Origin: Isoetes taiwanensis
Lineage: Eukaryota; Streptophyta; Lycopodiopsida; Isoetales; Isoetaceae
NCBI GenBank assembly: GCA_021234155.1
Contig: JAJEKV010000393.1
Span: 1 to 64,000 of the forward strand
DNA: 64,000 bases
Direction of reading: 5' to 3'
Notes under the pieces: model-generated
What the model was told of the DNA's origin: nothing
The model's input: only the letters and a program-made list of their open reading frames with translations
Databases searched by the model: none
Position numbers and translations under genes: made by a program
Shown here: positions 31,847 through 63,559 of the stretch, piece after piece
How the letters are laid out: each line of letters opens with the position of its first letter
How positions within the stretch are numbered: position 1 is the stretch's first letter

Positions 31847-31926
31847 TCCGACCTCCATCTCCCGACTTCCATCTCATTCGTTCGCCTTCCATCTCCTTCG
31901 CCTTCTACCTCTTTCAATTTGTCCGA

Positions 31927-41270: not shown

Positions 41271-41302
41271 ACGCCGCTAAATGTCCATTCTCTTGTTGTG
41301 TT

Positions 41303-42022
41303 TAACCCTTAATGTATCATATGCCACACATCGGCAATGTATGGTCCTCGCCTTCAACTCCGATTTGTGTTATAAACCTTACAATACCTTTGATCTCTCG
41401 GTATGATATGTCCCCATCTACCTGCTTTCCACCCCCAAATGATGTGAGCTAAGACGTATCCTCGCTAATAGTATGTCTCTTTCGCATTGATATATTTGCT
41501 CAGTAAATGTATTTGCGCCCCAAGTCGGGTTTATATTTATGTAAAATCATCTTAGTCTTAGGTCGCATCCATAGGCTTTTACGTGTATCAGGCTAGACAA
41601 CCATTGCCTTAGATCCAAATTGGTGAGAGCATTTCATCCGCTCAATACCCCATCTAGCAAGCCATTTTGCAAGTATCATGCCATATCCCTTCTCTTTCTT
41701 TTTGGATATCGGGGCCCTATGTGCAAGCCGAGACTCATCTTGGGCTAACACCTTCTTGAAGTAGGTAACACACCTCAAAATTGCTTCTCCTTCAAGTGGC
41801 ATGAGGCCACTTTCTTTCTACTAACATCATTGGGTATGGTGTTTGGGTCTTGACTTCTAGCTCTCGCCTTAAAACTTCTTCAAGACTTGTTCCATATCAT
41901 CCCATAGACCAGAAGACCGGCCCCCAAACCAGCACCCATACAAGAGCACACTCTGCACTGGGGATTGATACAATTTCACCTTAAGAGTCCAAGACCATAA
42001 ATGTATTCTTGACACATGCTGT
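41303..42022 (-). pseudogene. LINE reverse-transcriptase polyprotein, C-terminal part, unit 1
   Basis: The minus strand reads LYQSPVQSVLLYGCW, typical of the segment just after the RT domain of plant LINEs. It continues LEGEAILRCVTYFKKVLAQD, ESRLAHRAPIS, and KWLARWGIERM, then enters the terminal zinc-knuckle region in broken frames. The RT and endonuclease domains are missing: the remnant is 5'-truncated at the polypurine tract near 42,030, as is usual for LINE insertions. The C-terminal end is cut by the unit boundary at 41,303. Confidence 0.7.
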
Positions 42023-42044
42023 GAATGCATATAGTGCTCTTTCC

Positions 42045-42180
42045 AGAGAGAGAAGGGAGAGGGAGAGGGAGAGGGGGAGAGGGGCAAAAGTGGAGGGAGG
42101 GGTTTAGGGAAAGGGGCAAAAGAAGGGAGGGAGGGAGGGAGGGAGGGAGGGGGAGGGAGGGAGGGAAGGAGAAGATGGGG
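42045..42180. repeat. Polypurine (GGGA/GGGAGG)n tract, unit 1
   Basis: An almost pure purine run on the plus strand made of GAGAGGGAG and GGGAGGGA units. Equivalents lie at 55.72-55.77 and 62.14-62.27 kb. Length differs strongly between units. Encoded Arg/Glu/Gly or Pro/Ser/Leu frames are artefacts. Confidence 0.9.
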
Positions 42181-42525
42181 AAGATTGGGCAAGGGGGAGG
42201 GTTAGGGGCAAGGAGAGTTGGGAGGAGGAGAGGATCTCCCGGTAAAAAAAATAAAAATAAAAAACTAAATTTTATAAATTAAAGAAAGAAATTAAATCTC
42301 ATATTAAAAATAAAAATTAAATATTATTTAAAAAAAAAATGAAATACTAGTATTAAATTAAATATTATTATTAAATTAAATAGTAGTTCTCGACTCACTA
42401 ATCGAGAAGGCATAAGGCCCAAAAAAAAGGCAAGGCCAAAATGAACCTAAATAATAAGAAAAAAAGAAATGAATAGCGGGGAGAGGTAGAAAAGAAGTAA
42501 GCTGAGGAGGTAGACAATAAGTAAA

Positions 42526-43430
42526 GTGCAAGTCAAAAGCTTCGGGTTTCAATCGATTGTTTCCCAAGAACATGCTATGGCGGCTCCAAAAGATTCGAAA
42601 TCCAGAATCCGGAAGAAGAGGAGGCGATCCAGAAGAAGAATATGGAGGCGTAGAATCCGTAAGAAGAGGAGGCGATCCAATCCGGGCCCGTTCAAAGGGC
42701 ATTTTTTTGAAGCGGCCGGCGAGTTATGGCATTTTTTCTAAAGTACCGATTCATACTCGATGTAGTCATTTGAAGCAGATTCATCACTGATGTGGTCGTT
42801 TGAAGCAGCCTTCTGTTGATTATCGAATCAAGTATCAGCTCTTCGTCTTCTTCGCAGTCTGCTACCGATCCGCTGCCGTACCCCCATTCGCAAATTCGTC
42901 GACCTGTGCCGTTTTTTCTTCCGCCCAAAGGAAAAGGGGGCTCTTAAGAGCTGGAGATGGCTGTGTTTGCTTCCCTGGTGGGACAATTTGCAGCAACGCT
43001 TTGGTAGATTCGGTTTGGATTTGCGGCTGCTATTGATTTAAAGGGCTTCATGAGGGAGCACTTCCGGCACCATCTTGCAGAGATGGTGGGTCTTCTGATC
43101 CATCAGAATAGCCAGAGGTCTTCTGACTCACATCCAGAAGCCCAGCATTTGGCAGACCAAGTGCAAGCTTCTGGATGCATCGGCCTGCAGGCAAAGCAAA
43201 TGCATGTATCAGGCCTGCATCAGGAAACAATTAGTTTCGACGGATCTACAGACCTACTGCTTAGTCAGCGGGAATGCCGGATCCAAAGCTTGAAGCACTT
43301 TCATTTTCGGATCTGCAGCCTTCTTCAGCAGTTTCTTGCATGGCCATGGTTATACCATTCTTGGAACAGTCTCCCTAGCTTTTTGGAGAGCGGCTTAAAG
43401 GAGTCGAGGATTAAGGCAGACACGCCATGA
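42526..43430 (+). pseudogene. Unknown plus-strand coding remnant of the 6.4-kb unit, copy 1
   Basis: Two parts. At 42.55-42.70 kb there is a short internally duplicated charged segment, read as KSRIRKKRRRSRRRIWRRR in one frame or as acidic PEEEEAIQ-type repeats in another. At 43,050-43,430 there is a 126-codon frame, MREHFRHHLAEMVGLLIHQN through FLESGLKESRIKADTP, also open in unit 2 (125 codons, 56,645-57,022) but broken in unit 3. An alternative frame reads FSDLQPSSAVSCMAMVIPFL and later FDAIARAFSIATIVG and SVPSLGKDTCPKCLL. The true frame is therefore uncertain and no family is recognised. Confidence 0.35.
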
Positions 43431-43544
43431 GCTTCGATGCCATAGCCAGGGCGTTCTCCATAGCCACGATTGTGGGTGTAAGTGTACCAAGTCTCGGGAA
43501 AGACACATGTCCTAAGTGTCTTCTTTAAAAGGTATGTACCAAAT

Positions 43545-44142
43545 CTCCCCCCTTTTTAAATTTCAAATTTCGAATCTCCCCCCTTTTTAAATTTCAAATT
43601 TCGAACTGTAAGCATGAGTGGAAGAAAAAAGCGGGATATAGAGTGTACGTAACAAAAAAAGGCGGGGTATAGCGTAGCCAATGGGATATTTATCTAAGGC
43701 CAATGGGTATAGATTAAAATATTATATATAAATTCTAATGCCATATGTTATATATTATTTTAGATTATAGTATATTGTTTAGCTCGTCTTATAATTAAAA
43801 TCCCATTTTTTTCAAGCAGAAAAAAGCGGGGCATCAATGGGATATTTATCGTATGGGATATATGTCGTAGAAAATATATGGTGTCGATTGGAAAAAATAC
43901 ATATTAAGATAAGACAATAAACTATGGTGTGATAAAACAATAAACTAAGATGAGAAAAAATAATAAACTATGGTGTTTTAGAACTGTATTTTCTATGTTT
44001 TAGAACTATGGTGTTTTGGCATTTAGAAAATACATACTATATTTATTAGAAAATATATAGAATAGGATATTGTATTTATTAGAAAACATTGACATACTAA
44101 AAAGGGGAAAAGGCCTAGGGGGGTTTCTATTTTTGGTCTATG
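43545..44142. other. AT-rich stretch with a two-copy 31-bp repeat
   Basis: CTTTTTAAATTTCAAATTTC occurs twice in tandem (43,550-43,605), and again in units 2 and 3. The rest is very AT-rich with repeated AATGGGATATTTAT and AAACTATGGTGTTTTAGAAC words. No gene. Confidence 0.6.
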
Positions 44143-44838
44143 TCGGGGATAGGTTCTCAGACGTATGAAATTATTTTTTCAGACATTATAAAAGTCTAAA
44201 AAATCACGTATTTTTGGGAAAAAATACGTATTTTTCAGATTTAATACCACGGGAAAAAAAAATTTCACAGAAGTTTAAACCTTTTCGCTTTCACGCGAAA
44301 CTTTTTTCAGCAAGTAGTTTAAACCTTAGTTTCACGCCACGCTGGAAATTTTTTAAAAAAAAAAATTTTTCGCGAAAGCGAACCTTTGATTTTTTCGCTT
44401 TAATAAACCGCAGCGTAAAGCAAAAACCTTCTGGGCGTTTTAAACTACGAAACAAATTTTAATTTTCGTGGCGAAAACCTTGTTTAAACGCAGCGAACGC
44501 TGATTCAGCGTAAGAAAAATCGGAAGGTTTAAACGCAAAAAAAAAAAAAAAAAAAACTGTTTTTTTTTTTTTTTTTTCCACAGTAGTTTAAATTCGCATA
44601 AGCGAACAGAGGTTTATGAATTAAAAAAAAAAAAAAATGTTTTTAGCGTAAACCGGAAGGTTAAACGCGAAAGCGGTTTTCACGTAAGTTTAAACGGAAG
44701 GTTTCGCTTCACATAAAAATTTTTCGACGGAAATTTTTTTGGACGTATTTTTGACGTATTAAACGTCAAATTTGTGTCAGTATCAAGCGAAAATCGTATT
44801 ACATGATAAAACGATATCTGATGATTGAACCTATCCAC
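44143..44838. mobile_element. Non-autonomous hAT-like MITE (696 bp) with 8-bp target duplication
   Basis: GGTCTATG flanks it on both sides (44,135-44,142 and 44,839-44,846). Unit 2 has a single GGTCTATG at 57,734-57,741 in the same context, an empty site. Termini are TCGGGGATAGGTTC on the left and, reversed, GTGGATAGGTTC on the right, so the TIR is short with GGATAGGTTC in common. The interior is fold-back-like: poly-A followed by poly-T (about 44,539-44,578), and repeated GTTTAAACG, CGGAAGG and TTTCGC(TT) in both orientations. A plus-strand frame at 44,214-44,462 is not credible as a gene. The 8-bp duplication fits hAT or P-like elements. Confidence 0.85.
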
Positions 44839-45059
44839 GGTCTATGTATACATAGAAAATGCATAGGTATAGTGTGTAGAAAATACATAGGATATGGTGC
44901 AACTAATAATGATTTGCACTCTATGATATTGGAGGTAGAAAACTATGTTTGTAGGCAAGTAGGTTCGCCACATTTGTTGTATGTTTGATCACATTTGAAC
45001 AAAGGTATAGTATTATGATATGATGTTTGAAAGTTTCATTTTTTTACCTCCTCCCGGAC

Positions 45060-45770
45060 TGTTGTGTTTTCACTCCTAAATGGCCTTGACACCCAAAACT
45101 GCGTTTTTTAAGCTTTGAGTTGCCTTTTTTCATTTGCGAGTCGAGAAAGGCCTTCAACTTCTAGCACCTTTTTCGACTCGCGAGTCGAGAAACCTCCAAC
45201 CCTAAAACTGCGTTTTTCGCTTTGGTACGCCTTTCTGCCGACTCGCGAGTGAAAGGCCTCACCCTAAAACCCGCGTTTTTTGGCTTTTGGTGCCTTTCTG
45301 CGACTCGCGAGTAGAAGAATAACTCGTTTTTAAGCTTTGAGCTGCCTTTCACCATTTCGCGAGGTAGAAAACCTTCCCTAAAACTGTGTTTTTAGCTTTG
45401 GTTGCCTTTCTCGACTTCATGAGTCGAAAGGCCTTTCAACCCTAAAACGCGTTTTTTAAACTTTTGTACGCCTTTCATTTCGCGTGCCAAAAGGCCACGT
45501 TTTAGTTTTGGTACGCCTTTCTCGACTCCGACTCGAGTCGAAAGGCCTTCGACTCTAAAACCTGCGTTTTTGCTTTTTTCTCGCCTTTCGAAGTCGAGAA
45601 AGGCCTTCCCCCTAAAACCTGCGTTTTGGCTTTGAGCTTGCCTTTTCGACTCGGGTCGTCGAAAGGCCTTCGACCCTAAAACCCGCGGTTTTCGCTTTAG
45701 TCGAAAGGCCTTCGACTGTGTTTTTCCCTTCGAGCCGCCTTTCGCGAGTCGAGAAAGGCTTTCGGGCTTG
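45060..45770. repeat. Minisatellite of TCGACTCGCGAGTCGA palindromes, unit 1
   Basis: About eight tandem units of 75-95 bp. Each has CCTAAAAC(T/C)GCGTTTTT, then GCTTTGAGCTGCCTTTC, then a palindrome around TCGACTCGCGAGTCGA and GAAAGGCCTTC. The best palindrome, GCCTTTCTCGACTCG joined to its reverse complement, would form a 15-bp-stem hairpin with no loop. Copies vary mostly by small indels at CTG/CG. The same block is in unit 2 (57.97-58.72 kb). Confidence 0.85.
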
Positions 45771-45861
45771 TATTTTCCAAAAATGGCCCTAAGAACTGCG
45801 TGTTTTATTTTATTTTTTGCTGTAGCATCACTTGACTAACTTGATTTTGTCTTTTGCAAAT

Positions 45862-46010
45862 CCTTATCTCGACCGGATGGTACATGCTTGGGAGCAATGA
45901 AAAGACCAGTTCATTGAAGAAAGGTGCCGAGAAGAGGGTGGTGACATCAGTTGGACATACAAGCGCATTGACCCATGAAGGAACTCCTCATACAAATTTC
46001 TATCGTCCGT
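45862..46010 (+). pseudogene. Exon-like remnant after the minisatellite, unit 1
   Basis: Preceded by TTGATTTTGTCTTTTGCA (acceptor-like; AG is present only in unit 2) and followed by TATCGTCC/GTAAGTTGC (good donor). The shared frame in unit 2 reads PYLDQMVHAWEQ, then an in-frame TGA, KDQFIEERCREEGGDISWTY, and THEGTPHTNFYR. Unit 1 differs by small changes. No family is recognised. Confidence 0.35.
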
Positions 46011-46600
46011 AAGTTGCTCCGTGACTTGGAGAGAGCTCCACGCGCCGTTTGCACTAGCTGGTTCATGTGTGAAGAGGGTGTAATCATTGTGATAATACGA
46101 CCACTATGGTCTCTTCACCCACTGTAATATATATTGTAATGAGCCCATTTATAAATATAAGGTATCTCAAAACTAGTATTTTTTGGTGATTAAGTAAACA
46201 ATTTGCTTAATTTTTGTTGGAATTTGTGATCTCTTGTCTACCCACCTAAGAAAATAGAGCCAAAATGTTCAACTAAGAATCTTTTTCAACTAGAACTTTG
46301 GTTTCAATCTGTAATGAAATTCCTATGTTTGAGTTGCATTGTTCTTGTTCTCGACCCGCTATCCGAGAAAACTGGAAGAAAGCCTGGATGCACACTAACA
46401 GACAAAAATTCGAATTATGGACAGTTTTCGGGTCGGGGTGCTCCTTTTTGTGTAAAATAACAGGGTTCCGAAAAAAAGTGGGAATGGAATGAGACCCACT
46501 TTAATTAAATAGTGCTTGGTTGATGAAACTGCAGATGTGTTCAAATTTTGAAAGCGGATCACGACTTCTTGAGCGATATGGTAGGCTAATCATTTTACTC
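46011..46600. other. Non-coding stretch upstream of the (CT)n tracts, unit 1
   Basis: Contains TTCACCCACTGTAATATATA, GGGTTCCGAAAAAAAGTGGG and ATTAAATAGTGCTTGG words that recur in unit 2. No gene or structured RNA is recognised. Confidence 0.5.
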
Positions 46601-46603
46601 TTC

Positions 46604-46895
<292 letters not shown>

Positions 46896-47219
46896 GCGGG
46901 GATGAAACTTATATATCTTGAGTCGGGCTTTAGAGAGGAGGAGTCTGAGTGGTTGGGATTTGTGTCTAGCCAACAAGTTTAACTATTTCACATCCCGAGC
47001 AATGTAGCATTTCTTACGTTGTCATACATTAGTTTGTCAATTTTAATGGTTAAACACTATTTAATTAAAGTGGGTCAAATCTAAAATTTGGGACTCGACT
47101 GAAAAATGGGACTCATACTTACCGAATAGAATTTTTTCTTACTAAAACAACAATAACATTTACAAAGAACAATCCGAGAAAAGAAGAGGAGACAGTGGGA
47201 AAAAAATGGTAGGAAGGAA

Positions 47220-47365
47220 GGGGAGATGAAAGGGAGGGAGGGAGGGAGGGAGGGAGGCAAAGGAACGAGGGAGAGGGAGGAGGGAGGGAGAGGTAGGGAG
47301 GCGAGGGGGAGAGAGAGAGGGAGGGAGGGAGGGAGGGAGGAGGGAGAGAGAGAGAGAGAGGAAAG
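47220..47365. repeat. Second polypurine (GGGA)n/(GA)n tract, unit 1
   Basis: Runs of GGGAGGGAGGGAGG and GAGAGAGAGA on the plus strand just downstream (LINE sense) of the LINE stop codon. Equivalent at 60.99-61.13 kb. A purine-rich tail after a LINE 3' end is compatible with a degenerate LINE 3' tract. Confidence 0.85.
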
Positions 47366-47416
47366 AAAGTTTATTATGTCCATTGAGAGGCCTCAAAGGC
47401 CTATTAGACAATCAGT

Positions 47417-47518
47417 TTAAATATCTTCATAAAATAATAGACGAGTCTCCATATCCTCATCTAGCTCATCACTCTCACTCCAGTTATCTGAATCACCCTC
47501 ATCAATATCCTGTTGTGA
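47417..47518 (-). pseudogene. C-terminal tail of the LINE ORF, separated from its body by element B
   Basis: Reading away from element B the minus strand gives ESQQDIDEGDSDNWS(E/K)SDEL and DEDMETRLLFYEDI, then TAA at 47,419-47,417. The body of the same ORF continues at 54,872 on the far side of element B. Unit 3 (61,532-61,188) has the uninterrupted version, which proves the split. Confidence 0.8.
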
Positions 47519-48005
47519 TTCTAAACCCGGGGTTCACCTTTGTTTCAATTACAAAACATGTGCGTGGGCGATGAAGGGGTTTTTGCCATTTTGAAGCACG
47601 TATACCTAAGGAGCGCCTTCACGTTTTGGCGCCCGTCTGTAGATATCCACGGGTTCGGCGATTCGATGCGGTGGGCCGGACTTACAAATACGTTAAGGGG
47701 CTTTGAAGCTTTGATCAAAACTGGAGGACGAACGTTTAAGGGTTCTTGCATTTTGAGTTATGTTTTGAAATTTTTTTCCCAAGATGCTTTTTGCCTCACA
47801 AAACCTGTTTTTATAGTTTCTTATCAACGGATTAGAAGTACTTTTTTCTGAAACACGAGAAGACATTCTTTGAGGATTCGCCGTCTGCATTTTAGTTTTG
47901 TTCTTTGAGATTCCCGTGCCTCCATTTCGGTCCTTTCTACAAGTTTTCGGGTCTGCATATTTCTGCTCTAATATTTGATGCTTCTTATTTGCAGGTTTGA
48001 CAAAA

Positions 48006-51000
48006 ATGGAGAAGACAGTAGTCATCAAGTTGAATGATGGGTGTGGAGTTGTGGTGACCTTGGCCTTGTCATCGTCTCCCACGAGTGCACTTATGCGGAT
48101 GTACGAAGCGAAATAAGACGGGACGGGTTGCTAGAGGATGACAAAGAATTTGCATTTCTTGGAGATAGGGAAGTGGCCTTCACACCAAGGCAGGAGCTAA
48201 GGTTTAAGGTTTCTCTTGGCGAGATTACAATCAAGGTGGTTGGGGAGCATGCACATAAAAAGGCAAAGGACTGCAGTTGAAAGCATTGCATCTCTAAATC
48301 ACCAATTTGTGATGATAGGCAAGCTGTCATAGCGAGGATCAGACCAATGAAGAGGTAAACGACGATGAACTCCATCTAGTTGAAAATGCTTCCTTTTTAG
48401 ATGATGTGCCGGATCGAAGTTCAGCAAAGGGCAAGTTGCTATCAAGTTAGCAACTAAATTTGATGTTGCCGGATGGCAACATGCCGTGAAAAAGTTGAGC
48501 AGGAAGTTGAAGCAAAAGAAATCGAAAAAGGACAGGTTTGAATTGTGCTCTTATGATGTCCATGGTAAAGCGGTATTTTCTATTTGGTGTATTGAATGTG
48601 AAAAGAAATATGGGAAAGGCGGAGATGATACCATGTGTAACTTTGAAGCGCCACCATCTAAATTCCAAGGGCCATCTTTGAGAATTATGGCGTAACCTCA
48701 AGGATGAAGAAAAGGGTCTGCGCGGGAGTGCGGATCGAGGAAACAGAGGATCAGCCTTGTAATGAAGAGGAAGAGTTGCATGTATCCAAAGAGAACCAAG
48801 CTCTAGTTGAAAGAAATCGTTTTCTGCTGCCATTGCAAAGTTTCAAGAGGAAACTAGAGTATTCGATGTTGTGTTTAAGCTTTTACGAGAATACCATTGG
48901 TGGATTTGTAAGTGTTGAAGACATTCGTATCATTTGTGTCATGTGTGAAAGGCTCCTTGAGCTGTTTCCCAAATCTGGAAGTCTCGTTGGCCATATGAAA
49001 GACCATATTCTCTCAAAGAGGCACGTGCATGCCGTCATGAATATTGAGAAGGATTCAGATGAGCAAAGAACAAGAGGTGGGCGGCCCAAGAAATCTGCTG
49101 AACCAGACCCGAATCAAGGGAGTTTGCTTAAGTTTTTTGCAAAGGGTGCGCTACATTTTATTTGCTACAAGTGTTCATATTTTACCTTGTCTTTCTTACT
49201 GATTTTTACTTTGCTCCTTTACCTTCTATACCTTGTTTTTCTCACTGATTTTTACTTTGCCTTGTTTTGCAGCTACCCCTCCATCTACGAGCAGCCAAGC
49301 ATCGTCAAGTAATAGTTCACGTGAGTATACAAAACTGCCTTGTAAGCCTTTTAACATTTATTGTATTGTAAGTTTGTAGATTATTTAGACTTCGTTGTCT
49401 TTCCCCAACAGAAACAGCTTTGGCTTTACTATGTTGGGGCTTTTGGCAAAACAAATATAAGTATGGTGGGAAGTATGGAGATAAAGCCAAGGATTTAAGA
49501 CCCTTTCTGCATGAGCTGAAAATGGGAACAAAATGGTATTGTGAACCTACATTGCAGCATACATTAGTGGTTGGGCAGAATGTAATCCATGTTAGTGGCA
49601 CGTTTAGGCATACGAAGTGCAAGAGGATTAGCCTTAGTGGTGAACCCTTTGTTAATTATCAATGTTCACTTTGTGCTGCTATTCCGAAGGAAAAAGATTT
49701 TTACATGAGGGTGCATAGGCAAACTGATGATAAGGTAGCAAGGGGACTTAGAACTACTAAATTACGTATTAGATCAGATTATCTGAATAGCATAGAGGTT
49801 AAAAAAATGGCTAGGTCTGCTGGGTCTGAGATAAGGAAGTTGAAAGCAGAGTTAATGTTTTCCCGAATGAGAGTTGTGGCATTGTCAATGAAGGAAAGGT
49901 CACTTAGAGGAAGTTTGGAGGAGTCCATGAACAGAAAGGATGTGAACAGATTTTGCCAAGACATAGTGGAGGCACATCGGCAAGGAAAATTTAGTGGTAG
50001 GCCAGCTTTGTGGGATTTTTTAAGGGACATAGCTCAAAACATAATCAGACCTGGCCATAGAAGAAGATATAGAGAAACCACAAAAGCATTGTTTGAAACA
50101 ATAAAGATTTGGGGAGGGAGAAGAATGCACAATTTTCTTTCTCTAAACTTTGCAGGCCCAAGTATGTCCACCACGATGCGCTCTACACGAGAAAGCTTCT
50201 TTTACAAAGTCGGTATCAGGGAAGACACATTCAAGCATCTTGCTCAAACCTATTCTCGACACATGGAACGCCAGCAGCTTGATTTGGGTGGAATTCCAGC
50301 AATTGTGGCCGAGGATGAGACCGTGGTGAAGAGGGCTGTTCGTTGGATTCCTAGAGATGATTGTTTACTAGGCTTTTGTGGAAAGAAGGAAGGACATGTG
50401 CGCAATGGCACCTTTGAGGTGATTGTTGGCTGCAATGAAGAGGGCTACAATGTCATTACGAAGGCCTTCGAGGAGAATGTGATTTCTCACTATGCAAGAG
50501 TTCTTATTGTAAACCCATTGCACAAGAAGTTTGCCCAAGCTTGTCCTTGCTATTATTCTTACGTGTAATAGATTCGATCACCTTGAAGTAAGATGTCGAG
50601 TGGAACCGAATCCGGGAGTTGTGGAATGCACACTTGAGAATGGTAGTTGGCCCTCTAATCTACCATTACGGCTCGGATGGAGATTCAAGACGAAGAGCAT
50701 GCATGTTTGAGGACTACACATCAAAGGGCTCTAGGGACTCTACATTTGAAGTGCCATGGATTGGTTGGCCTTTAAGTGCCTCAATTAATGATGATGTTTA
50801 TGGCTGCATGATCAAGATTTCGTGCACAATGGCAAGAAGCTTGTCAATCCGTTGGACGCTGCATCTAGAAGATTGTACTTAGGGAACGAGCTAGTCACTC
50901 TTAATGACATACACCATGTCTTTGAGTTGTGCCAAGGGAGGCATGGGCTGGAACTTGGAGATGTGAAGCGGCGGGGATAGGCAAAGCGGAGGGCTGCCCA

Positions 51001-52767
51001 ACGCCTTGCCTCTAGAAAGGTTCAAGGGTGCTTGGATGACCCTCGAAATGGTACCTGCAGCCCACCATTTCGGAATTTGGGGACAAAAAGTTTATTTGGA
51101 AATTGTGGCGACCTATATTGACATCTTCTTGTCACCTACTATGGACTGAGAGCAAGGGTTAAGGCTGCTGCAACGTTTCCTTTTTTTTTAGGTGTGCAAG
51201 AATAGCTTTTGCTTCTTTTAGTTTGGATTGGTAGCGAAATTCGGGAATTTGCTAATGATTCAAGTTCTTGTTCATAACGGACTTTGGAGGCTATGGTTGA
51301 AGGACCAAAGCACGATTATTAGTTGAGTAAAAACTTCATTAGTCGGGGAAACTTTCATAGATGTGCAATTGTCATGTCATTTTGTTGTCTTTGCTCATTA
51401 AGTATTTCAGGGATAAATTTGGCCATTTAGAGTTGCCCTTACAGTGCACAGGATCGGACGTGTGCGAAAACTTCTTCTCCAAAGTGGGTGGCATGGTGCG
51501 TAATGAGAGGTCGTATGATGGGGCAGACTTGTTGGAGAGTGCCTCTGCTTTGAATCATATCTCGAATTTCAGCCGCCCACGACCCTCTTATTTCCGTGAC
51601 TCATGTCAAGCAAGAGCACATTTGGCAGGAGTTAGAAAAAAAGGTAGATACTGATGGTAAAGTGCTGAACTGTGACCTTTCAGATTTCAGTGGCGTGGAT
51701 ACGGACGAGAAGATTGTTGCTGCTTTAAAGGAAGGGCTTATTGCTGCACAAGAATTGTGCGAGAGTGTGATTATTACATGCAGACCGATCCATGGTTTAA
51801 TGAACCATGGAAATTTGAGGATTGCTTTAAAAGTAATTTCTCGCTAGACTTGAGTTCTAACATTGTAGGAGATGAGACCGATGTTGTGGAAGAGAGCACG
51901 GAGCCTCAAGGTGAAGAAGTAGTAAGTGAGGCTGATGTGGCCAGATCTGAATTACGTCATGTATTTGATGAAATGTTGGACGAATGTGAAAGGAAAAAGC
52001 CCTCTCATGTATCTTGGCATGTTGAGATGGAAGGGAAGAGAATCTTTAAGTCAACCATTGTGAGTCATTTAAATGGAAACCCGTGGCTTTCGAAGGATAG
52101 GTTGACTAGAGTTAGGACTTTGGTATATTCCATTGAAGATAATAATGTTAGTGCACAGACTCTACTAGGCATTGGAACAGACTGTGCGGTCTACTTTGAA
52201 GAACCTGTGGAAGAAACGGTGGTACCACAGACTAGACATGCTACAGCCAAAAAGAAGCAGAAATCTGTGTCAATTCAAAAGGTTTGGTACCTTGGAAGGG
52301 TATTGAGCATGAGGAGGAAGTCTGGCAGTGCGTGGAGAGAGAGTAGAGAGCCCGTGGACTTGGTTAAACGCCCTTCCTTTGAAGTTCAGCTAAATCTAGC
52401 ATATTACAGAAAACACGTTGGCAAGGATGCCAAGTCCATATGGTTTACATACGATCTGACCGATAATAGACTCATAGACCTTGAGTCTATCATATCCCTT
52501 GCATGTTTAAAATATGACCCTGCCAAAAACATTTACCATCTGCATGATAATGATAGGGTACGGTGAATAAGTTTTAATGCGTGAGCAAAATAATGGTAGG
52601 ATTGTCTTTGTCATTAGGGCCACTAAATGGTTATAGTCCGCTACTAACTATTATTTCTTTTTGTTTTGTAGGGGACAAGGGAAAGCAAAAGCTTTAGGGA
52701 ATCGGCGGTCGAGGCGGATATTTGTTCCCATCAGTAGTGTATTATCAAACAACATGCAGCTGTTTAA
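48006..52767 (+). CDS. Transposase-like zinc-finger gene of element B, multi-exon
   Basis: The ATG at 48,006 (MEKTVVIKLNDGCGV) lies just after an intron acceptor, TTATTTGCAG. Regions in order: GLLEDDKEFAFLGDREVAFT; a Cys-containing segment FSIWCIECEKKYGKG (about 48.58 kb); ICVMCERLLELFPKSGSLVG then HMKDHILSKRH (C2H2/BED-like, about 48.93-49.03 kb); and GGRPKKSAEPDPNQGSLLKF. A small exon follows at 49,273-49,320, with introns bounded by TTTTGCAG and GTGAGT...CCAACAG. Then comes the 49.4-50.6 kb core, EVPWIGWPLSASINDDVYG, and TGSDVCENFFSKVGGM at 51,448-51,495. An acidic C-terminal region follows (SNIVGDETDVVEESTEPQGE), and the proposed stop TAA is at 52,767. Several frameshifts remain. I infer an RNase-H-like DDE/D transposase, but the third acid is not assigned. 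Confidence 0.6.
49412..50568 (+). CDS. Core of the element B transposase, longest intact frame (~385 codons)
   Basis: This is the longest believable frame in the window. It opens after the CCAACAG acceptor with TALALLCWGFWQNKYKYGG, then a finger-like HTKCKRISLSGEPFVNYQC SLC segment, charged helices (MARSAGSEIRKLKAELMFSR) and SRHMERQQLDLGGIPAIVAE. AEDETVV follows at 50,308-50,328, then RWIPRDDCLLGFCGKKEGHV and a beta-rich stretch. An acidic DE pair about 15 residues before a xxDxxxGFxG turn resembles the first catalytic motif of P-element/THAP9-like transposases. That is my inference from pattern, not a database match. Confidence 0.7.
50619..52566 (+). pseudogene. C-terminal half of the element B transposase, frame-broken
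   Basis: Pieces: LWNAHLRMVVGPLIYHYGSD (50.62 kb) to WPLSASINDDVYG; a shifted stretch to 51.2 kb; FRDKFGHLELPLQCTGSDVC and ENFFSKVGGMVRNERSYDGA (51.40-51.51 kb); DTDGKVLNCDLSDFSGVDTD (about 51.65 kb). A 269-codon frame at 51,757-52,566 holds KKPSHVSWHVEMEGKRIFKS, TLVYSIEDNNVSAQTLLGIG and KHVGKDAKSIWFTYDLTDNR. The ENFF-containing block recalls the conserved E/N-F-F region near the last catalytic acid in P-like transposases. Element A preserves some of these pieces in better frame. Confidence 0.55.
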
Positions 52768-53762
52768 TTATGGAAGCAGATACTCCTTATGGCAGCATGG
52801 TAAGACTACATTTTGCCATTTATATTTTAGCCTTAAGAGAAGAAGTATCAGCCTTCAAAAAAACCAAGAACTCGGCTTGGTTTACTTTATGAGATGCCAG
52901 CTACATGATGAACTGAAGGTTTGAAAGGAGAAGACAATGGGAAAGATACTTGGGGAATAATTTCATGTCCTATCCGGCAAACAACTTAGTTTTAAGATAG
53001 TATTACGGTTTGAAGTTGCATAACTCAGATGCCTAAAACTTAATGCCTGATTTTGATACATAAAGGCTGGCCTGGGAATGCAATAACAATCTGTTTGCTT
53101 AAACATTATGTTCAAAACACTTTAGGGGTTTTACTTGTGATTGTGACGATTGTGATCCTACTTAAGGGTTTTACTTGTGATTGTTTAAGGCAGAAACAAT
53201 GGTTACTGATATGCTTTATAGAGTTTATGGTCTTGCTGAAAAATGGATGCATGCACTTGTATCTTTCCTTCTGAAAAGCAAACAGAGGTATGCAATTATT
53301 TTTAGCAAAGCATGAACATTATTACATGGACATTTTAACATCTAAACACTGATTTAAGCATGAACATTTCAGGGTTATAAACATTTAAACACAGGTCGTA
53401 AATAAGGCACTGTATTGATCTGATGTATCAAATGAATAACCCTACCTACAGATCTTTAATTTCCTGTCAAGTAATAGAAAAAAGAGATTTCATATGATAA
53501 CTGCGCCATTTTTCCTACAGACTATACTTCCAAACTACCTAACCTAACCTGAATATATGTTGCACTACGAAATCAAGAGACAAAATTTCAGAAAACATAT
53601 CATATCATATTATGTATTCACATGGGATTCACATAAAAAGGAACCAGTTTACATATCATGCACAAAAAAAAAGATCTGGCCCAAAAGTTTACATCAGACT
53701 TGTTCACAACATAAGTTAAGGAGCCCGGGTGATTTCATATACATAGCCGTGAAAGCAAAAAC

Positions 53763-54100
53763 CTAGGATACTAAGAAGGGGAACAAGCCACTACAGCGCT
53801 GCGGGGAGGAGGCATCCTCGGCTCCACGAAGCAGTTCATTGTCTTCAGCAAAAATCTTCATCTCCAACGGTCGTTCTTCATTGACATGCACCCGATCAAC
53901 CTTTCGCAAAACCTTTTTGAAAAGGTAAGCTCCTATTTCTTGCAAGCGAGACACCTCTTCCACGGCTAAAGCGAGCCACAATTTTCATTGTGGTGCGTAA
54001 CCACAGAATGCTGAGTAAAAAAACGGATTGAACCCGGATCAGATCCGGATCCGACAGATTCATCCAGGCGGCGTTTGGCAGTGGTCTTGGTCCGGGCCAT
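53763..54100 (-). pseudogene. Small accessory gene of element B (histone-H3-tail-like N-terminus)
   Basis: The ATG at 54,100 reads MARTKTTAKRRLDES, a Gly/Ser-rich linker (VGSGSDPGS), then IRFFTQHSVVTHHNENCGS. One base is missing relative to element A (TTT versus TTTT). The following frame gives EEVSRLQEIGAYLFKKVLRK, VDRVHVNEERPLEMKIF and AEDNELLRGAEDASSPQR, ending at TAG (53,763). The first eleven residues resemble the histone H3 tail (MARTKQTARKS), but the rest has no clear histone fold. Element A reads MALTKTIAKRF, so the key arginine rests on CGG versus CTG and is uncertain. A TATA-like box lies 83 bp upstream. DNA-binding or chromatin interaction is only a hypothesis. Confidence 0.5.
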
Positions 54101-54182
54101 TCCGACAAATTGAAAGAGGTAGAAGGCGAAGGAGATGGAAGGCGAACGAATGAGATGGAAGTCGAAGGAGATGGAGGTCGGA

Positions 54183-54190
54183 TTATATAG
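54183..54190 (-). promoter_or_regulatory. Probable TATA box of the element B accessory gene
   Basis: CTATATAA on the minus strand, 83 bp upstream of the accessory ATG and conserved in position in element A. It is followed by a pyrimidine-rich leader with repeated CTTCCATCTC-like words. Confidence 0.5.
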
Positions 54191-54289
54191 TTGCATGCCG
54201 AGCCCGCCAAAACCTTAATGATAAACCTTAATGAAAAATCCTATTGCCATAATGTGAAATCTGAAAAGGCGTGCCACCCAATAATAAAC

Positions 54290-54480
54290 CCTAATACCCT
54301 ATTCTATTAACACAATAATGGGACAATAATTCAATCTATTAACCCAATAACTATTAACTATTAACACTATTAGCCTAACTATTAACACTATTAGCCTACT
54401 ATTAGCCTAACCCTATTAACACAATAATAGAATCCATTAACCCTAACTATTAACCCAATAAAAAAATCTATTAACCCCCA
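54290..54480. repeat. CTATTAAC-rich simple repeats in element B
   Basis: Inverse counterpart of 31.56-31.75 kb: irregular CTATTAACAC, AGCCTAACTATTAAC and CCCAATAA units near this end of the element. Confidence 0.65.
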
Positions 54481-54871
54481 TTTGGTTGGTGTTCCCTGCT
54501 TTTCTTTTTTTCAGTGACCACCTGTTTGACCACCATTGAACTAAGAGGGACCATTGAACCATTGAACCCTAAACCTTCATGGAGCTCTACAGTCCTCTAG
54601 TCCTGTGCAAAATTAGGAGGTCGAATGTAAATATAAGGTAGAGGGTAGGCTACATTAGTGATATCCTGGCGTGAAAATAAGGTTAAGGGTAGGGTCAATG
54701 GGGAGTGGACTAGGCGTAAAAGTATGGAATCAGGTATTATTTTTCACAAACACCGTGATCAGTATACATAGGGGTTTCTATGGGGAGAGTCAGATCTGGA
54801 GGGGTTTCTCCCCCCGACTCGAACGCACATGCCATATCCCTTTACATAGAGGTGAACCCAGGGTTCTAAAC

Positions 54872-55710
54872 ATGTATCTCTATGTATAAAAGTTCAATCA
54901 AATAACTCCCCAGCATATCACTATCATATGTGAAGAGAGTCGGAAGATCTACATGGTCTATTCCATATTTAACCCTTAATGTATCATATGCCACACATCG
55001 AAGTAATGTATGGTCCTCGTCTTCAACCTGATTTGTGTTATAAACCTTACAATACCTTTGATCTCTCGGTATGATATGTCCCCATCTACCTGTTTCCACC
55101 CCCAAATGATGTGAGCTAAGACGTATCCTGCTAATAGTATGTCTCTTCTGCATTGATATATTTGCCTGTAAATGTATTGCTGCCCCCAAGTCCGGGTTTA
55201 TATTTATGTAAAATCATCTTAGTCTTAGGTCAAGATCCATAGCTTTCTCGCGGTATCCAGGCTAGACAACCATTGCCTTAGATCCAAATTGACTGAGAGC
55301 ATTTCATCCAGCTCAATACCCCATCTAGCAAGCCATTTTGCAGTATCATGCCATATCCCCTTCTCTTTACTGGATATCAGGGCCCTATGTGCAAGCCGAG
55401 ACTCATCTTGGGCTAACACCTTCTTGAAGTAGGTAACACACCTCAAAATTGCTTCTCCTTCAAGTGGCATGAGGCCACTTTCTTTCTACTAACATCATTG
55501 GGTATGGTGTTTGGGTCTTGACTTCTAGCTCTCGCCTTAAAACTTCTTCAAGACTTGTTCCATATCATCCCATAGACCGGAAGACCGGCCCCAAACTTCA
55601 AGACCCATACAAGAGCACACTCTCGCACTGTGGATTGATACAATTTCACCTTAAGAGTCCAAGACCATAAATGTATTCTTCGACACATGCTCAGTAATGC
55701 ATATAGTGCT
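54872..55710 (-). pseudogene. LINE reverse-transcriptase polyprotein, C-terminal part, unit 2
   Basis: The 5' limit is the polypurine tract near 55.72 kb. Motifs: LYQSTVRECALVWVLKFGAG (broken), LEGEAILRCVTYFKKVLAQD, KEKGIWHDTAKWLARWGIEL, then RHTISRIRLSSHHLGVETGR and WGHIIPRDQRYCKVYNTNQV with EDEDHTLLRC. The last is a zf-RVT-type knuckle (CX2CX9HX4C) whose second Cys reads Tyr here and in unit 1, but Cys in unit 3. Element B cuts the frame after LIELLYIEIHV. RT and endonuclease domains are absent. Confidence 0.8.
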
Positions 55711-55719
55711 CTTTCCCCG

Positions 55720-55765
55720 AGAGAGAGAAGGGAGAGGGAGGGAGGGAGGGAGGGAAGGAGAAGAT
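55720..55765. repeat. Polypurine tract, unit 2 (short allele)
   Basis: GAGAGAGAAGGGAGAGGG followed by GGGA repeats. About a third of the length of the tract in units 1 and 3, with the internal GGCAAAAGTGGAGGG segment missing. Confidence 0.85.
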
Positions 55766-56099
55766 GGGGAAGATTGGGCAAAGGGGGGAGGGTTAGGGGC
55801 AAGGAGAGTTGGGAGGAGGAGAGGATCTCCCCGGTTAAAAAAAAAAAAATAAAAACTAAATTTTATAAATTAAAGAAAGAAATTAAATCTCATATTAAAA
55901 ATAAAAATTAAATATTATTTAAAAAAAATGAAATACTAGTATTAAATTAAATATTATTATTAAATTAAATAGTAGTTCTCGACTCACTAATCGAGAAGGC
56001 ATAAGGCCCAAAAAAGGCAAGGCCAAAATGAACCTAAATAATAAGAAAAAGAAATGAATAGCAGGAGAGGTAGAAAAGAAGTAACTGAGGTAGACAATA

Positions 56100-57022
56100 A
56101 GTCTGCAGTCAAAGCTTCTGAAGCTGAATCAGTTGTTTCCCAAGAACATGCTATGGCGGCTCCAGTATTCCCGAAATCCAGAATCCAGAAGAAGAGGAGG
56201 CGATCCAGAAGAAGAATATGGAGGCGCCGAATCCAGAAGAAGAGGAGGCGATCCAAATCTGGCCTGTTCAAAGGGGCATTTTTTTTGAAGCAGCGACAGA
56301 GTTATGGCATTTTTTTTTTTTTTCTAAAGCGCCACCGATTCATAAATCGATGTAGTCATTTGAAGCGATTCATCATCATGTGGTCGTTTGAAGCAACCTT
56401 TCCGTTGATTATCGAATCAAGTATCGCTCTTCGCCTTCTTCGCTGATGCGCTCAACCGATCCATTGCCGCACCCCCATTCGCCAAATTCGCCGCGATCCG
56501 CCGCTTTTTTCTTCCGCCCAAAGGAAAAAGGGGCTCTTAAAATTTGGAGATGGTGTGTTTGCTTCCCCGGTGGGACAATTTGCGCTAACGCTTTGGTAGA
56601 TTCGGTTTTTTGGATTTGCGGCTGCTATTGATTTAAAGGGCTTCATGAGGGAGCACTTCCGGCACCATCTTGCAGAGATGGTGGGTCTTCTGATCCATCA
56701 GAATAGCCAGAGGTCTTCTGACTCACATCCAGAAGCCCAGCATTTGGCAGACCAAGTGCAAGCTTCGGATGCATCGGCTACCGCAGCAAAGCAAATGCAT
56801 GTATCGGGCGCATCATCGAAACAATTAGTTTCGGCGGATCTGAGACCCTCTTTGCTTAGTCACGGAATGCGGATCCAAAGCTTGAAGCTCTTTCATTTTC
56901 GAATCTGCAGCCTTCTTCGGCAGTTTCTTGCATGGCCATGGTTATACCATTCTTGGAACAGTCTCCCTAGCTTTTTGGAGAGCGGCTTAAAGGAGTCGAG
57001 GATTAAGGCAGACACGCCATGA
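56100..57022 (+). pseudogene. Unknown plus-strand coding remnant of the 6.4-kb unit, copy 2
   Basis: It has the same two parts as in unit 1. AVKASEAESVVSQEHAMAAP precedes the charged KKRRRSRRRIWRRR segment (56.1-56.25 kb). The 125-codon frame at 56,645-57,022 (MREHFRHHLAEMVGLLIHQN ... SRIKADTP) differs from unit 1 by indels that keep the frame, weak evidence for coding. The downstream alternative frame with PSLGKDTCPKC is also present. Family unknown. Confidence 0.35.
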
Positions 57023-57129
57023 GCTTCGATGCCATAGCTGTAGGCGTTCTCCATAGCCCGCATTGTGGGTGTAAGTGTACCAAGTCTCGGAAAGACACAT
57101 GTCCTAAGTGTCTTCTTTAAAAGGTATGT

Positions 57130-57960
57130 ACCAAATCTCCCCCCTTTTTAAATTTCAAATTTCGAATCTCCCCTTTTTAAATTTCAAATTTCGAACTCAG
57201 TAAGCATGAGTGGAAGAAAAAGCGGGATATAGAGTGTGCGTAAAAAAAAGCGAGGGTATAAGCGTGAGCCAATGGGATATTTATCTAAGGCCAATGGGTA
57301 TAGATTAAAATATTATATATAAATTCTAATGCCATATGTTATATATTATTTTAGATTATAGTATATTGTTTAGCTCGTCTTATAATTAAAATCCCATTTT
57401 TTCAAGCAGAAAGTAAAAAGCGGGGCATCAATGGGATATTTATGCATTATGGGATATATGTAAGAGAAAATATATGGTGTCGATTGGAAAAAATACATAT
57501 TAAGATAAGACAATAAACTATGGTGTGATAAAACAATAAACTAAGATGAGAAAAAATAATAAACTATGGTGTTTTAGAACTGTATTTTCTATGTTTTAGA
57601 ACTATGGTGTTTTGGCATTTAGAAAATACATACTATATTTATTAGAAAATATATAGAATAGGATATTGTATTTATTAGAAAACATTGACATACTAAAAAG
57701 GGGGAAAAGTAAAGGGAGGGGGTTCTATTTTTTGGTCTATGTATACATAGAAAATGCATAGGTATAGTGTGTAGAAAATACATAGGATATGGTGCAACTA
57801 ATAATGATTTGCACTCTATGATATTGGAGGTAGAAAACTATGTTTGTAGGCAAGTAGGTTCGCCACATTTGTTGTATGTTTGATCACATTTGAACAAAGG
57901 TATAGTATTATGATATGATGTTTGAAAGTTTCATTTTTTACCTCCTCGGACCTGTTGTGT
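57130..57960. other. AT-rich stretch of unit 2 with the empty MITE site
   Basis: Collinear with 43.54-45.05 kb minus the MITE. GGTCTATG at 57,734-57,741 sits in CTATGTATACATAG, a small palindrome that was the MITE target in unit 1. No gene. Confidence 0.7.
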
Positions 57961-57964
57961 TTTT

Positions 57965-58715
57965 CACTCTAAATGGCCTTCTGACACCCAAAACCTGCGT
58001 TTTTCGCTTTGAGTTGCCTTTCTCGACTTCGGCAGTCGCTTTTGAAAGGCCTGCGACTCGAACCCCTAAAACCTGCGCCTTTTTTAAGCTTTGCTGCCTT
58101 TCTCGATTTCATGAAGTCGAAAGGCCTTTTCCTTCCCCTAAAACCCGTTTTTAAGCTTTGAGTCGCCTTTCTCGACTCGGGCGGTCGAAAGGCCTTCGAC
58201 CCTAAAACCCGTTTTTGCTTTGAGCTGCCTTTCGACTTTCGCGAGTCGAAAGGCCAACTGGATTTTTAAGCTTTGAGCGCCTTTTCTCGACTCGCGAACC
58301 GAGAAAGGCCTTCACCCCTAAAACTGCGTTTTTGCTTTGAGCTGCCTTCGACTTCGCGTCGAAAGGCCTTCCCCCTAAAACCTGCGTTTTTGGCTTTGAG
58401 CTGCCTTTCTCGATTTCGCGAAGTAGCGAAAAAGGCCAACTCGTTTTACGGCTTTGAAACGCCTTTCGACTTCGCGGTCGAGAAAGGCCTTCCCACCCCT
58501 AAAACCGCGTTTTTGCTTTGAGCTGCCTTTCGACTCTCGAGTCGAAAGGCCTTCTACTTCCCTAAAACTGCGTTTTTCGCTTTTGAGCTGCCTTTTCGAC
58601 TCGAGTCGAGAAAGGCCTCTCGACCTTCTAAAACTCGCGGTTTTAAGCTTTAGTCGAGAAAGGCCTTCTGACCTGTGTTTTTCCCTCTGAGCTGCCTTTC
58701 GCGAGTCGAGAAAGG
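57965..58715. repeat. Minisatellite of TCGACTCGCGAGTCGA palindromes, unit 2
   Basis: Eight or nine units of 75-95 bp as in unit 1, with CCTAAAACCTGCGTTTTT, GCTTTGAGCTGCCTTTC and palindromic TCGACTC(GC)GAGTCGA cores plus GAAAGGCC. In several units the palindrome centre differs from unit 1 (for example CGACTTCGCGGTCG). Confidence 0.85.
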
Positions 58716-58817
58716 CTTTCAGGCTTGTATTTTCCAAAAATGGCCCTAAGAACTGTGTTTTATTTTATTTTTTTTGCCTGTAGCATCACTTGACTAACTT
58801 GATTTTGTCTTTTGCAG

Positions 58818-58966
58818 TCCTTATCTCGACCAGATGGTACATGCTTGGGAGCAATGAAAAGACCAGTTCATTGAAGAAAGGTGCCGAGAAGAGGGTGGTG
58901 ACATCAGTTGGACATACAAGCACGTGACCCATGAAGGAACTCCTCATACAAATTTCTATCGTCTGT
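58818..58966 (+). pseudogene. Exon-like remnant after the minisatellite, unit 2
   Basis: The acceptor GTCTTTTGCAG and the donor TCT/GTAAGTTGC enclose a frame PYLDQMVHAWEQ, an in-frame TGA, then KDQFIEERCREEGGDISWTY and KHVTHEGTPHTNFYR. TGA in place of an expected Trp-like codon is shared by both units. No family is recognised. Confidence 0.4.
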
Positions 58967-59553
58967 AAGTTGCTCCGTGACTTGGAGAGAGCTCCACGCG
59001 CCGTTTGCACTAGGTGGTTCATGTGTGAAGAGGGTGTAATCATTGTGATAATACGACCACTATGGTCTCTTCACCCACTGTAATATATATTGTAATGAGC
59101 CCATTTATAAATATAAGGTATCTCAAAACTAGTATTTTTTGGTGATTAAGTAAACAATTTGCTTAATTTTTGTTGGAATTTGTGATCTCTTGTCTACCCA
59201 CCTAAGAAAATAGAGCCAAAATGTTCAACTAAGAATCTTTTTCAACTAGAACTTTGGTTTCAATCTGTAATGAAATTCCTATGTTTGAGTTGCATTGTTC
59301 TTGTTCTCGACCCGCTATCCGAGAAAACTGGAAGAAAGCCCGGATGCACTAAAGACAAAAATTGAATTATGGGCCGGTTTGAATCGAGGTGCTCCTTTTT
59401 GTGTAAAATAACAGGGTTCCGAAAAAAAGTGGGAATGGAATGAGACCCACTTTAATTAAATAGTGCTTGGTTGATGAAACTGCAGATGTGTTCAAATTTT
59501 GAAAGCAGATGCAGCTTCTTGAGCAGTATGGTAGGCTAATCATTTTACTCTTC

Positions 59554-59745
<192 letters not shown>

Positions 59746-59746
<1 letters not shown>

Positions 59747-59960
59747 AGACGTTAAACTGCCATACCCAAGGTCACGGGTTCAACGCCTTGTTGTGAAAGT
59801 GGCCATGCAATGTAAAGTTGGTGGGGGGAGGACCCACTTCAGCAATATAAAGTGGTGGGGGCAGGACCCATCTGGGTGTGTTGTAAAGTGTCACATGTCC
59901 GATAGGACGCTGCCTTGTGGCGTGACGTTAAAATCTCTTCTTCTTCTTCTTCTTCTTTTC
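59746..59960 (+). repeat. Possible SINE-like insert
   Basis: Follows the (CT)n tract with AAGACGTTAAACTGCC, then CACGGGTTCAACGCC, which contains a good RNA polymerase III B-box (GGTTCAACGCC). It continues with a duplicated AAAGT-GGTGGGGG-AGGACCCA word and ends in GTGACGTTAAAATCT(TCT)n. No A-box is visible upstream, so this would be a 5'-truncated SINE or a tRNA-derived fragment. It is absent from unit 1. Confidence 0.35.
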
Positions 59961-60514
59961 CAATCTTGCAAAAGGTTTTCTTTTGAGCAATCAAGTCTTA
60001 ACAGGAGCCAAGTATAAACTTTCAAAAAACTATAGACATAGCTGGAGATTAGTTTTGATCATATAGTACTAGTTGAATAGAAGAAGAGGTTGAGAAAGGC
60101 ATATTAGTACTGAAGCTATAGATATAAAATTTGAATGGGATCTATGTGCTTAAAATCTTCTCGTCCATATGTTGTAATTATTCCTATCTGTTTAATACAA
60201 AATTGCTTTCTTTGAGAAAGCAAAAAAAGAAAGAGATAGCACTCGAGGCAAGCGCAAGTGCGAACATCATTAACGCCATGCCAAACAAAGCCTGGATGCA
60301 CACACACAATGCAGACAAAAATTGAATTATGGACGGTTTTGGTCGGGGTGCTCCTTTTTGTGTAAAATATACAGGGTTCAAAAAAAAGTGGGAATGGAAT
60401 GAGACCCACTTTAATTAAATAGTGCTTGGTTGATGAAACTCAAGTAGATGTGTTCAAATTTTGAAAGCAGATCTGCTTCTTGAGCGATATGGTAGGCTAA
60501 TCATTTTACTCTTC

Positions 60515-60621
<107 letters not shown>

Positions 60622-60984
60622 CCCTCCCATCTCTGTATTGTCTAAGTCAACATGTGGCCAATGCAGAGAAAGGGATGAAACTTATATATCTTGAGTCGGG
60701 CTTTAGGGAGGAGGAGTCAGTGGTTGGGATTTGTGTCTAGCCAACAAGTTTAACTATTTCACATCCGGACAATGTAGCATTTACGTTGTCATACATTAGT
60801 TTGTCAATTTTAATGGTTAAACACTATTTAATTAAAGTGGGTCAAATCTCGAAATTTGGGACTCGGGACTGAAAATGGGACTCATACTTACCGAATAGAA
60901 TTTTTCTTACTAAAACAACAATAACATTTACAAAGAACAATCCGAGAAAAGAAGAGGAGGCAGGTGGGAAAAAATGGTAGGAAG

Positions 60985-61135
60985 GAAGGGAGATGAAAGG
61001 GAGGGAGGGACGGAGGGAGGGAGGCAAAGGAATGGGGAGAGGGAGGAGGGAGGGGAGAGGTAGGAGAGGCAGTGGGGAGAGAGAGAGGAGGGAGGGAGGG
61101 AGGGAGGGAGGGAGGAGAGAGAGAGAGAGAGGAAA
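60985..61135. repeat. Polypurine (GGGA)n/(GA)n tract next to the LINE 3' end, unit 2/3 junction
   Basis: GGGAGGGAGGGAC, GGGAGGGAGGGAGGGAGG and GAGAGAGAGA runs, equivalent to 47.22-47.37 kb, just after the LINE stop at 61,188. Confidence 0.85.
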
Positions 61136-61187
61136 GAAAGTTTATTATGTCCATTGAGAGGCCTCAAAGGCCTATTAGACAATCAGT

Positions 61188-62110: not shown

Positions 62111-62134
62111 CACATGCTCAGAATGCATGCATAT

Positions 62135-62270
62135 AGTGCTCTTTCCCAGAAAGAGAGAGAAGGGAGAGGGGAGAGGGAGAGGGAGAGAGGGGCAAAAGTG
62201 GAGGGGAGGGGTTTAGGAAAGGGGCAAAAGAAGGAGGGAGGGAGGGAGGGAGGGAGGGAAGGAGAAGATG
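62135..62270. repeat. Polypurine tract, unit 3 (long allele)
   Basis: GAGAGGGGAGAGGGAGAGGG, a GGCAAAAGTGGAGG spacer, then (GGGA)n. Matches the long form of unit 1. Confidence 0.9.
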
Positions 62271-62635
62271 GGGAAGATTGGGCAAAGGGGGGAGGGTTAG
62301 GGGCAAGGAGAGTTGGGAGGAGGAGAGGATCTCCCGGTTAAAAAAAAAAATAAAAACTAAATTTTATAAATTAAAGAAAGAAATTAAATCTCATATTAAA
62401 AATAAAAATTAAATATTATTTAAAAAAAATGAAATACTAGTATTAAATTAAATATTATTATTAAATTAAATAGTAGTTCTCGACTCACTAATCGAGAAGG
62501 CATAAGGCCCAAAAAAGGCAAGGCCAAAATGAACCTAAATAATAAGAAAAAGAAATGAATAGCAGGAGAGGTAGAAAAGAAGTGGCCCGAGGTAGACAAT
62601 AAGTCTCAAGCATCAAAAAGCTTCGTCCGGAATCA

Positions 62636-63480: not shown

Positions 63481-63559
63481 AAGTCGAGGATTAAAGGCGG
63501 AACCGCCATGAGCCGATGCCATAGCGAGGCATTCTCCATAGCCCGCGATTGTGGGTGTA

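Follow-up and report, generated by a model that had tools for sequence, protein, structure and literature searches.

Element B and its family

The analysed window, a 64,000-nucleotide stretch of contig JAJEKV010000393.1 from the quillwort Isoetes taiwanensis, contains a 7,337-bp terminal inverted repeat (TIR) transposon, element B, at positions 47,527-54,863. Element B carries a transposase gene on the plus strand and a shorter, convergent gene near its right end. Its limits are fixed by the sequence TTCTAAAC, which lies directly on both sides (47,519-47,526 and 54,864-54,871), together with an unfilled copy of the same sequence at 61,290-61,297. The original prediction of a 7.3-kb TIR element with an exact 8-bp target duplication and an empty site within the window was therefore correct: the 126 bp before the unfilled copy and the 138 bp after it are 99.2% and 97.8% identical, respectively, to the flanks of B. 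The empty site belongs to a neighboring paralogous repeat and is not an allele of the B locus. TTCTAAAC was also said to have this single further occurrence, but we found two more, one at 7,437 and a reverse-complemented one at 38,884.

The left TIR of B (47,527-47,539, plus strand) reads CCGGGGTTCACCT, where the family has CCCGGGGGGTTCACCT; its tip, CCGGGG, is shorter than the family form CCCGGGGGG. The right TIR (54,850-54,863, minus strand) reads CCCTGGGTTCACCT when followed inward. The inverted repetition of the termini is as first described, with GGGTTCACCT at 47,530 recurring reverse-complemented at 54,850, and CATGTGCG at 47,557 recurring in the same manner at 54,824. A second full-length copy, A (31,170-38,550, minus strand), is 94% identical to B, ends in CCCGGGGGGTTCACCT on both sides, and is flanked by GTTTGATA and GTTTGATC, which match at seven of eight bases. 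Both copies are frameshifted, and relatives with open exons are present elsewhere in the genome. B had been called complete, which holds for its length, but both its transposase and its second gene are broken by frameshifts.

The surroundings of B consist of tandem paralogous repeat units of about 6.4 kb, excluding the element (41,301-47,518 and 54,872-64,000), with B inserted into one of them. These repeats had been identified as a LINE. The flanking open reading frame (ORF) presumably resembles the zf-RVT end of a LINE, but it has no Pfam match and the identification was not confirmed. Elsewhere in the window, a 272-aa ORF (4,513-5,331, minus strand) may correspond to the DUF4218 region of a CACTA element. 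Scanning the window for Rfam families and for tRNAs returned no match.

The genome (1,658,258,908 bases in 1,110 contigs) contains 66 matches to the light-harvesting family PF00504, which marks its owner as a photosynthetic eukaryote. We searched it for both ends of the family, whose common form on the left and right is CCCGGGGGGTTCACCT, a 16-bp inverted repeat. At least 40 matches were found for the left end (40 scored of 738 candidates) and at least 41 for the right end (40 scored of 568 candidates), and these were paired by position. Seven of the 40 left-end matches had no usable partner, and two extra left ends of a single locus on contig C1034 were dropped. The remaining 31 (A, B, and 29 further loci at which both ends were read) were paired, and the addition of the relative L041, which is flanked by a perfect AATCAATA duplication, gave 32 copies. 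One counted pair, on contig C919, spans 46 kb, presumably due to nested insertions.

An exact 8-bp duplication flanks 25 of the 32 copies, at one fixed position in 19 of them, and 28 copies show a duplication when one mismatch is allowed. Mispaired ends gave one exact duplication, none at the fixed position, and 16 with one mismatch, each among 992 control pairs. Four copies (L056, L058, L074, and L084) lack a duplication even with one mismatch and were scored as misses. The length of the duplication is eight: four of the 19 fixed-position pairs extend by one further base, no more than expected by chance. These 19 duplications share no motif and show weak base preferences (G at the first position in ten, T at the seventh in ten). 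An assembly or tandem-repeat artefact could in principle produce both the duplication and the empty site of B, whose flanks are paralogous repeats, but the exact 8-bp duplications of these 25 copies lie at different places, and we consider such an artefact highly improbable.

Several flanked copies fall far short of 7.3 kb, the smallest measuring about 2.4 kb by match coordinates, and are internally shortened. At one locus on C1034 (15447565-15455320), three left ends lie about 1.8 kb apart within one copy, and the duplication GTACGATC adjoins both the outermost left end and the right end; this locus is a single insertion whose 5' part has been duplicated in tandem. Overall, this quillwort genome contains many members of the family, and B is a decayed one.

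The transposase and its putative catalytic residues

The first coding part of the transposase (47,997-49,165, plus strand), located by tblastn with a coding part of the relative L012, is spread over three frames in B and corresponds to an N-terminal domain with two C-x2-C...H zinc-finger-like motifs. The core exon (49,411-51,190, plus strand), with an AG just before 49,412, carries the residues D, D, and DxxH, and its frame is broken near 50,530 and again later. The last large coding part (51,282-52,557, plus strand), located by tblastn with a coding part of L041, contains the motif CENFF, with a putative catalytic E, and a C-terminal domain. These frame-interrupted coding parts and the AG before 49,412 bear out the prediction of a large, intron-containing transposase gene. 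The open stretches of L012 are 441, 594, and 194 aa long, and those of L041 are 302, 643, and 455 aa, with one frame change near the second zinc motif. Adding up the coding parts that we used (382, 580, and 437 aa) gives a transposase of about 1,400 aa, with approximate exon borders and start.

A genome search with a transposase exon, in which 104 of 987 candidates were scored, gave at least 105 matches with 55-100% identity. Between subfamilies, the core exon has a dN of 0.22-0.31 with saturated synonymous sites (pS 0.76-0.90); this low core dN marks the transposases as old proteins under purifying selection. In the stretch fetched around L040, a relative with 63% identity, we recognized neither a TIR nor the second gene. 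No relatives were found in viral contigs or in genome contigs, the latter from prokaryotes only and hence uninformative about the distribution among plants.

No Pfam model scored above its cut-off in ten window ORFs, four core proteins, two N-terminal parts, and one C-terminal part, and sequence searches of the PDB with the transposase gave chance-level matches only. The best matches of the transposase below the Pfam cut-off were to zinc-finger models (PF18445, E 0.0095; PF12756, E 0.02). The description as a zinc-finger transposase thus has weak support, from the C-x2-C...H patterns and from these Pfam matches below the cut-off. The first 80 or so residues of the L041 and L012 transposases look, on our assumption, ubiquitin-like; the N-terminal parts of L012 and L038 matched neither a ubiquitin-like nor a THAP model in Pfam. 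A predicted fold of a window ORF, based on alignment rows from the window only, had a mean pLDDT of 33 and was discarded. With no Pfam model above cut-off and no significant PDB match, the family is one to which we, like the original prediction, can assign no name. We found no account of it in the literature searched; a name may exist in Repbase or Dfam.

In an alignment of four transposases, residues D295, D414, D463, and H466 (within AEDETV, SSDGD, and DFxH) are invariant in all four rows, and E649 of CENFFSKVGGM is invariant in the three rows that reach this position. The decayed copy L028 reads CANFF, with A in place of E. We infer from this pattern that these residues form the catalytic set. 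The spacing of these candidate residues is 119 from the first to the second aspartate (D1-D2), 49 from D2 to DxxH, and 235 from D2 to E, with about 185 residues separating DxxH from E. An RNase H fold received no support from Pfam above cut-off or from a significant PDB match.

The second gene and histone H3-like protein starts

The second gene of B (gene 2; 53,829-54,100, minus strand) is frameshifted and begins MARTKTTAKRR; in relatives, it encodes about 100 aa. Its counterpart in copy A (31,927-32,231, plus strand), also frameshifted, begins MALTKTIAKR. L041, L039, A, and B all contain an ORF, or pieces of one, for a protein of about 95-100 aa near the right end on the strand opposite the transposase. 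A genome search for gene 2, in which 150 of 724 candidates were scored, gave at least 150 matches. We compared these with the 104 transposase loci, leaving out the short second match C1034:8384448, and found 13 gene pairs within 9 kb (at 12 transposase loci), where 0.17 would be expected by chance. Gene 2 lies downstream of the transposase in all 13 and is convergent with it, as had been proposed for B. It was also recognized in 12 of 21 further stretches (four of eight diverged members and eight of 12 close members, the single L040 stretch being negative); since these stretches were placed by guess, the misses do not prove absence. Gene 2 is under purifying selection between subfamilies (dN 0.42-0.55 versus dS 1.35-2.19), while in two close pairs dN/dS is about 0.54-0.56 (0.054/0.100 and 0.037/0.066), indicating weak constraint.

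We aligned the gene 2 starts of 24 copies, 20 of which were chosen among the 127 of 150 matches whose alignment begins at residue 1. Numbered from the residue after the initiator methionine, A1 is present in 24 copies, R2 in 23, K4 in 24, T6 in 22, and A7 in 23. Position 3 varies (T in 13, I in seven, L in three, P in one), and position 5 may be any residue but is never Q. The next positions hold R (15) or K (8), followed by K (16) or R (5). This start matches at least six of the ten residues of the H3 tail, ARTKQTARKS, in 22 of 24 copies (range 4-9, with two copies matching nine). By comparison, 1,664 decamers from elsewhere in the same proteins match at most four, and shuffled gene 2 N-termini reach six or more in 79 of 48,000 cases. 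The codons for A1, R2, K4, and A7 differ among copies by synonymous changes, a pattern indicative of selection at the protein level. Weaker starts also occur outside these 24 copies, including that of A and those of L112 (MARMKFTAAK), L113 (MARIKVTGRR), and L110 (MARIKVIAS). The likeness to H3 is confined to about the first ten residues. We considered a protein that is histone-like throughout and dropped this idea, as no Pfam histone model matched three gene 2 proteins and no PDB histone matched the one searched.

An alanine after the initiator methionine makes removal of the methionine likely, so the gene 2 protein would probably expose a free A1, as H3 does. The PHD fingers of BAZ2A and BAZ2B are described as requiring R2 and T3 for binding and as binding a Q5A peptide more tightly (PMC5415848). 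Given this need for T3, gene 2 variants with I or L at position 3 may not bind such readers.

A degenerate DNA pattern for MARTKxTARK matched the whole genome 1,200 times (595 + 605), and its reversed control did not match; the gene 2 variant MARIKYTARK gave 28 matches, again with none for the control. Position 5 is Q in 89 of the 100 MARTKxTARK places listed. We read 20 of these 100, a choice that over-represents variants (13 with Q, seven with another residue). Three of the 13 Q starts belong to true histone H3 (L159, L164, and L169) and ten to other proteins; none of the seven non-Q starts is H3, and 17 of the 20 starts read thus belong to other proteins. These 17 are of several kinds (for example MARTKQTARKPRPGE..., MARTK[CF]TARKY..., and MARTK[AS]TARKYQARE...), several of their frames run into stops, and by eye none resembles gene 2 past the start. 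The non-histone proteins are often acidic and apparently unrelated, as at L151, L152, L157, L161, and L168. About 5.6 kb downstream of one site, a reverse transcriptase is weakly matched (PF00078, E 0.0004, below cut-off), which is suggestive of some of these ORFs being extra retroelement ORFs. Judged from sequence, this genome carries H3-like starts on several repeated proteins that are apparently not related.

A simpler account of gene 2 is that its start is a basic stretch, such as a nuclear localization signal, that resembles H3 by chance on a DNA-binding helper protein. We give this account slightly less than an even chance. The stretch is indeed basic, positions 3 and 5 vary, constraint among close copies is weak, and conservation of the H3-like segment (mean pairwise identity 0.70) is barely above that of the remaining protein (0.64 and 0.67). 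Shuffling of the N-terminal residues rarely reproduces the match, however, and A1, R2, K4, T6, and A7 are each retained in 22-24 of 24 copies. Moreover, unrelated proteins of this genome begin with the exact sequence MARTKQTARK. The literature searched held no account of H3-tail mimics carried by transposons.

Proposed mechanism and comparison with known transposons

Element B is, with high probability, a full-length but defunct member of a large cut-and-paste family that encodes a DDE transposase and, convergent with it, a small protein with an H3-tail-like start. In our model, the gene 1 transposase, with its zinc-finger-like N-terminal part, D/D/DxxH/E core, and C-terminal domain, would bind the element ends, cut the element out, and insert it into a target opened with an 8-bp stagger, a step that would account for the 8-bp duplication. 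This chemistry and a P-like fold of the core are predicted; the ends, the 8-bp duplications, the two-gene layout, the shortened flanked copies, and purifying selection between subfamilies on the core and gene 2 were observed. Our best guess for the gene 2 protein is a chromatin-facing helper that may bind or decoy readers or writers of the H3 tail, through which the element would escape silencing or be tethered to chromatin. Anti-silencing proteins are known from plant elements, as the VANC proteins of VANDAL are described as removing silent marks from elements of the same type (PMC10398659), and an anti-silencing role for gene 2 is on this ground a reasonable guess, no more.

What surprises most in these findings is the second gene, together with the H3-tail starts across the genome. 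Histone mimicry is known from viruses. A bolder reading, which we find doubtful, is that a new superfamily-level land-plant transposon, with a P-like catalytic layout and no recognizable relatives, encodes an anti-silencing H3-tail mimic, and that other quillwort mobile-element families have adopted the same trick. If so, repeats of more than one kind would employ mimicry within a single plant genome, and if gene 2 is a real H3-tail mimic, it would offer a directly testable case of transposon interference with host chromatin. A recent review lists six superfamilies of plant TIR transposons (PMC9033089). An abundant two-gene family with an unrecognized transposase would add a lineage and give a name to its repeats.

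Since no P, hAT, MULE, or THAP model matched the transposase, we file it in no known superfamily; we infer a DDE cut-and-paste transposon outside P, hAT, and MULE. The ends of P elements begin with CA and those of hAT elements with CAGGG or TAGGG, Kolobok targets TTAA, and D2 and E lie about 324 residues apart in the hAT transposase Hermes. hAT and MuDR elements are common in plants, and 8-bp duplications are also made by Zisupton and Novosib.

That the family is instead a divergent member of the P superfamily in a land plant has, in our estimate, a little less than an even chance. The catalytic residues are reported as D230, D303, D339 (DxxH), and E531 in Drosophila P transposase and as D304, D374, D414, and E613 in human THAP9 (PMC8230255). 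The D2-E spacing of 235 residues is within seven of both (228 in P, 239 in THAP9), and the D2-DxxH spacing of 49 compares with 36 and 40. The order D, D, DxxH, E, the long insertion that separates DxxH from E, and the 8-bp duplication, reported for P as well (PMC7776569), are further points of likeness. In contrast, D1-D2 is 46-49 residues longer here (119 versus 73 and 70), the ends begin CCCGGGG rather than CA, and the element has a second gene and a land-plant host. Pfam searches gave no P, THAP9, or THAP match; PF21787 was without a match in the genome, in a search that was equally silent in every control genome. The D/D/DxxH/E resemblance is one of apparent layout and, without a fold, does not make this a P transposase.

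It is improbable that the family belongs to hAT, MULE, or another known superfamily that makes a long duplication and is missed by the Pfam models. hAT elements share a duplication of about 8 bp (PMC3706591), and the C/DxxH motif is described as common to hAT, MuDR, P, Kolobok, and Dada (PMC10045372, PMC3706591). However, no hAT transposase, hAT dimerization, or MULE model matched, the duplication is eight rather than 9-11 bp, the D2-E spacing differs from that of Hermes, and the ends are unlike those of hAT elements, as is the presence of a second gene. Kolobok and Dada are likewise placed in the C/DxxH group of transposases (PMC10045372), but Dada is reported to make 6-7-bp duplications in small-RNA genes (PMC3706591), and the 19 fixed-position 8-bp duplications of the present family, none of them shared between copies, fit neither this targeting nor that of Kolobok. 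MULEs differ from the present family in its 8-bp duplication and in its gene 2 protein of about 95 aa with an H3-like N-terminus, but MuDR and the VANC-bearing VANDAL elements of Arabidopsis resemble it in carrying a protein besides the transposase.
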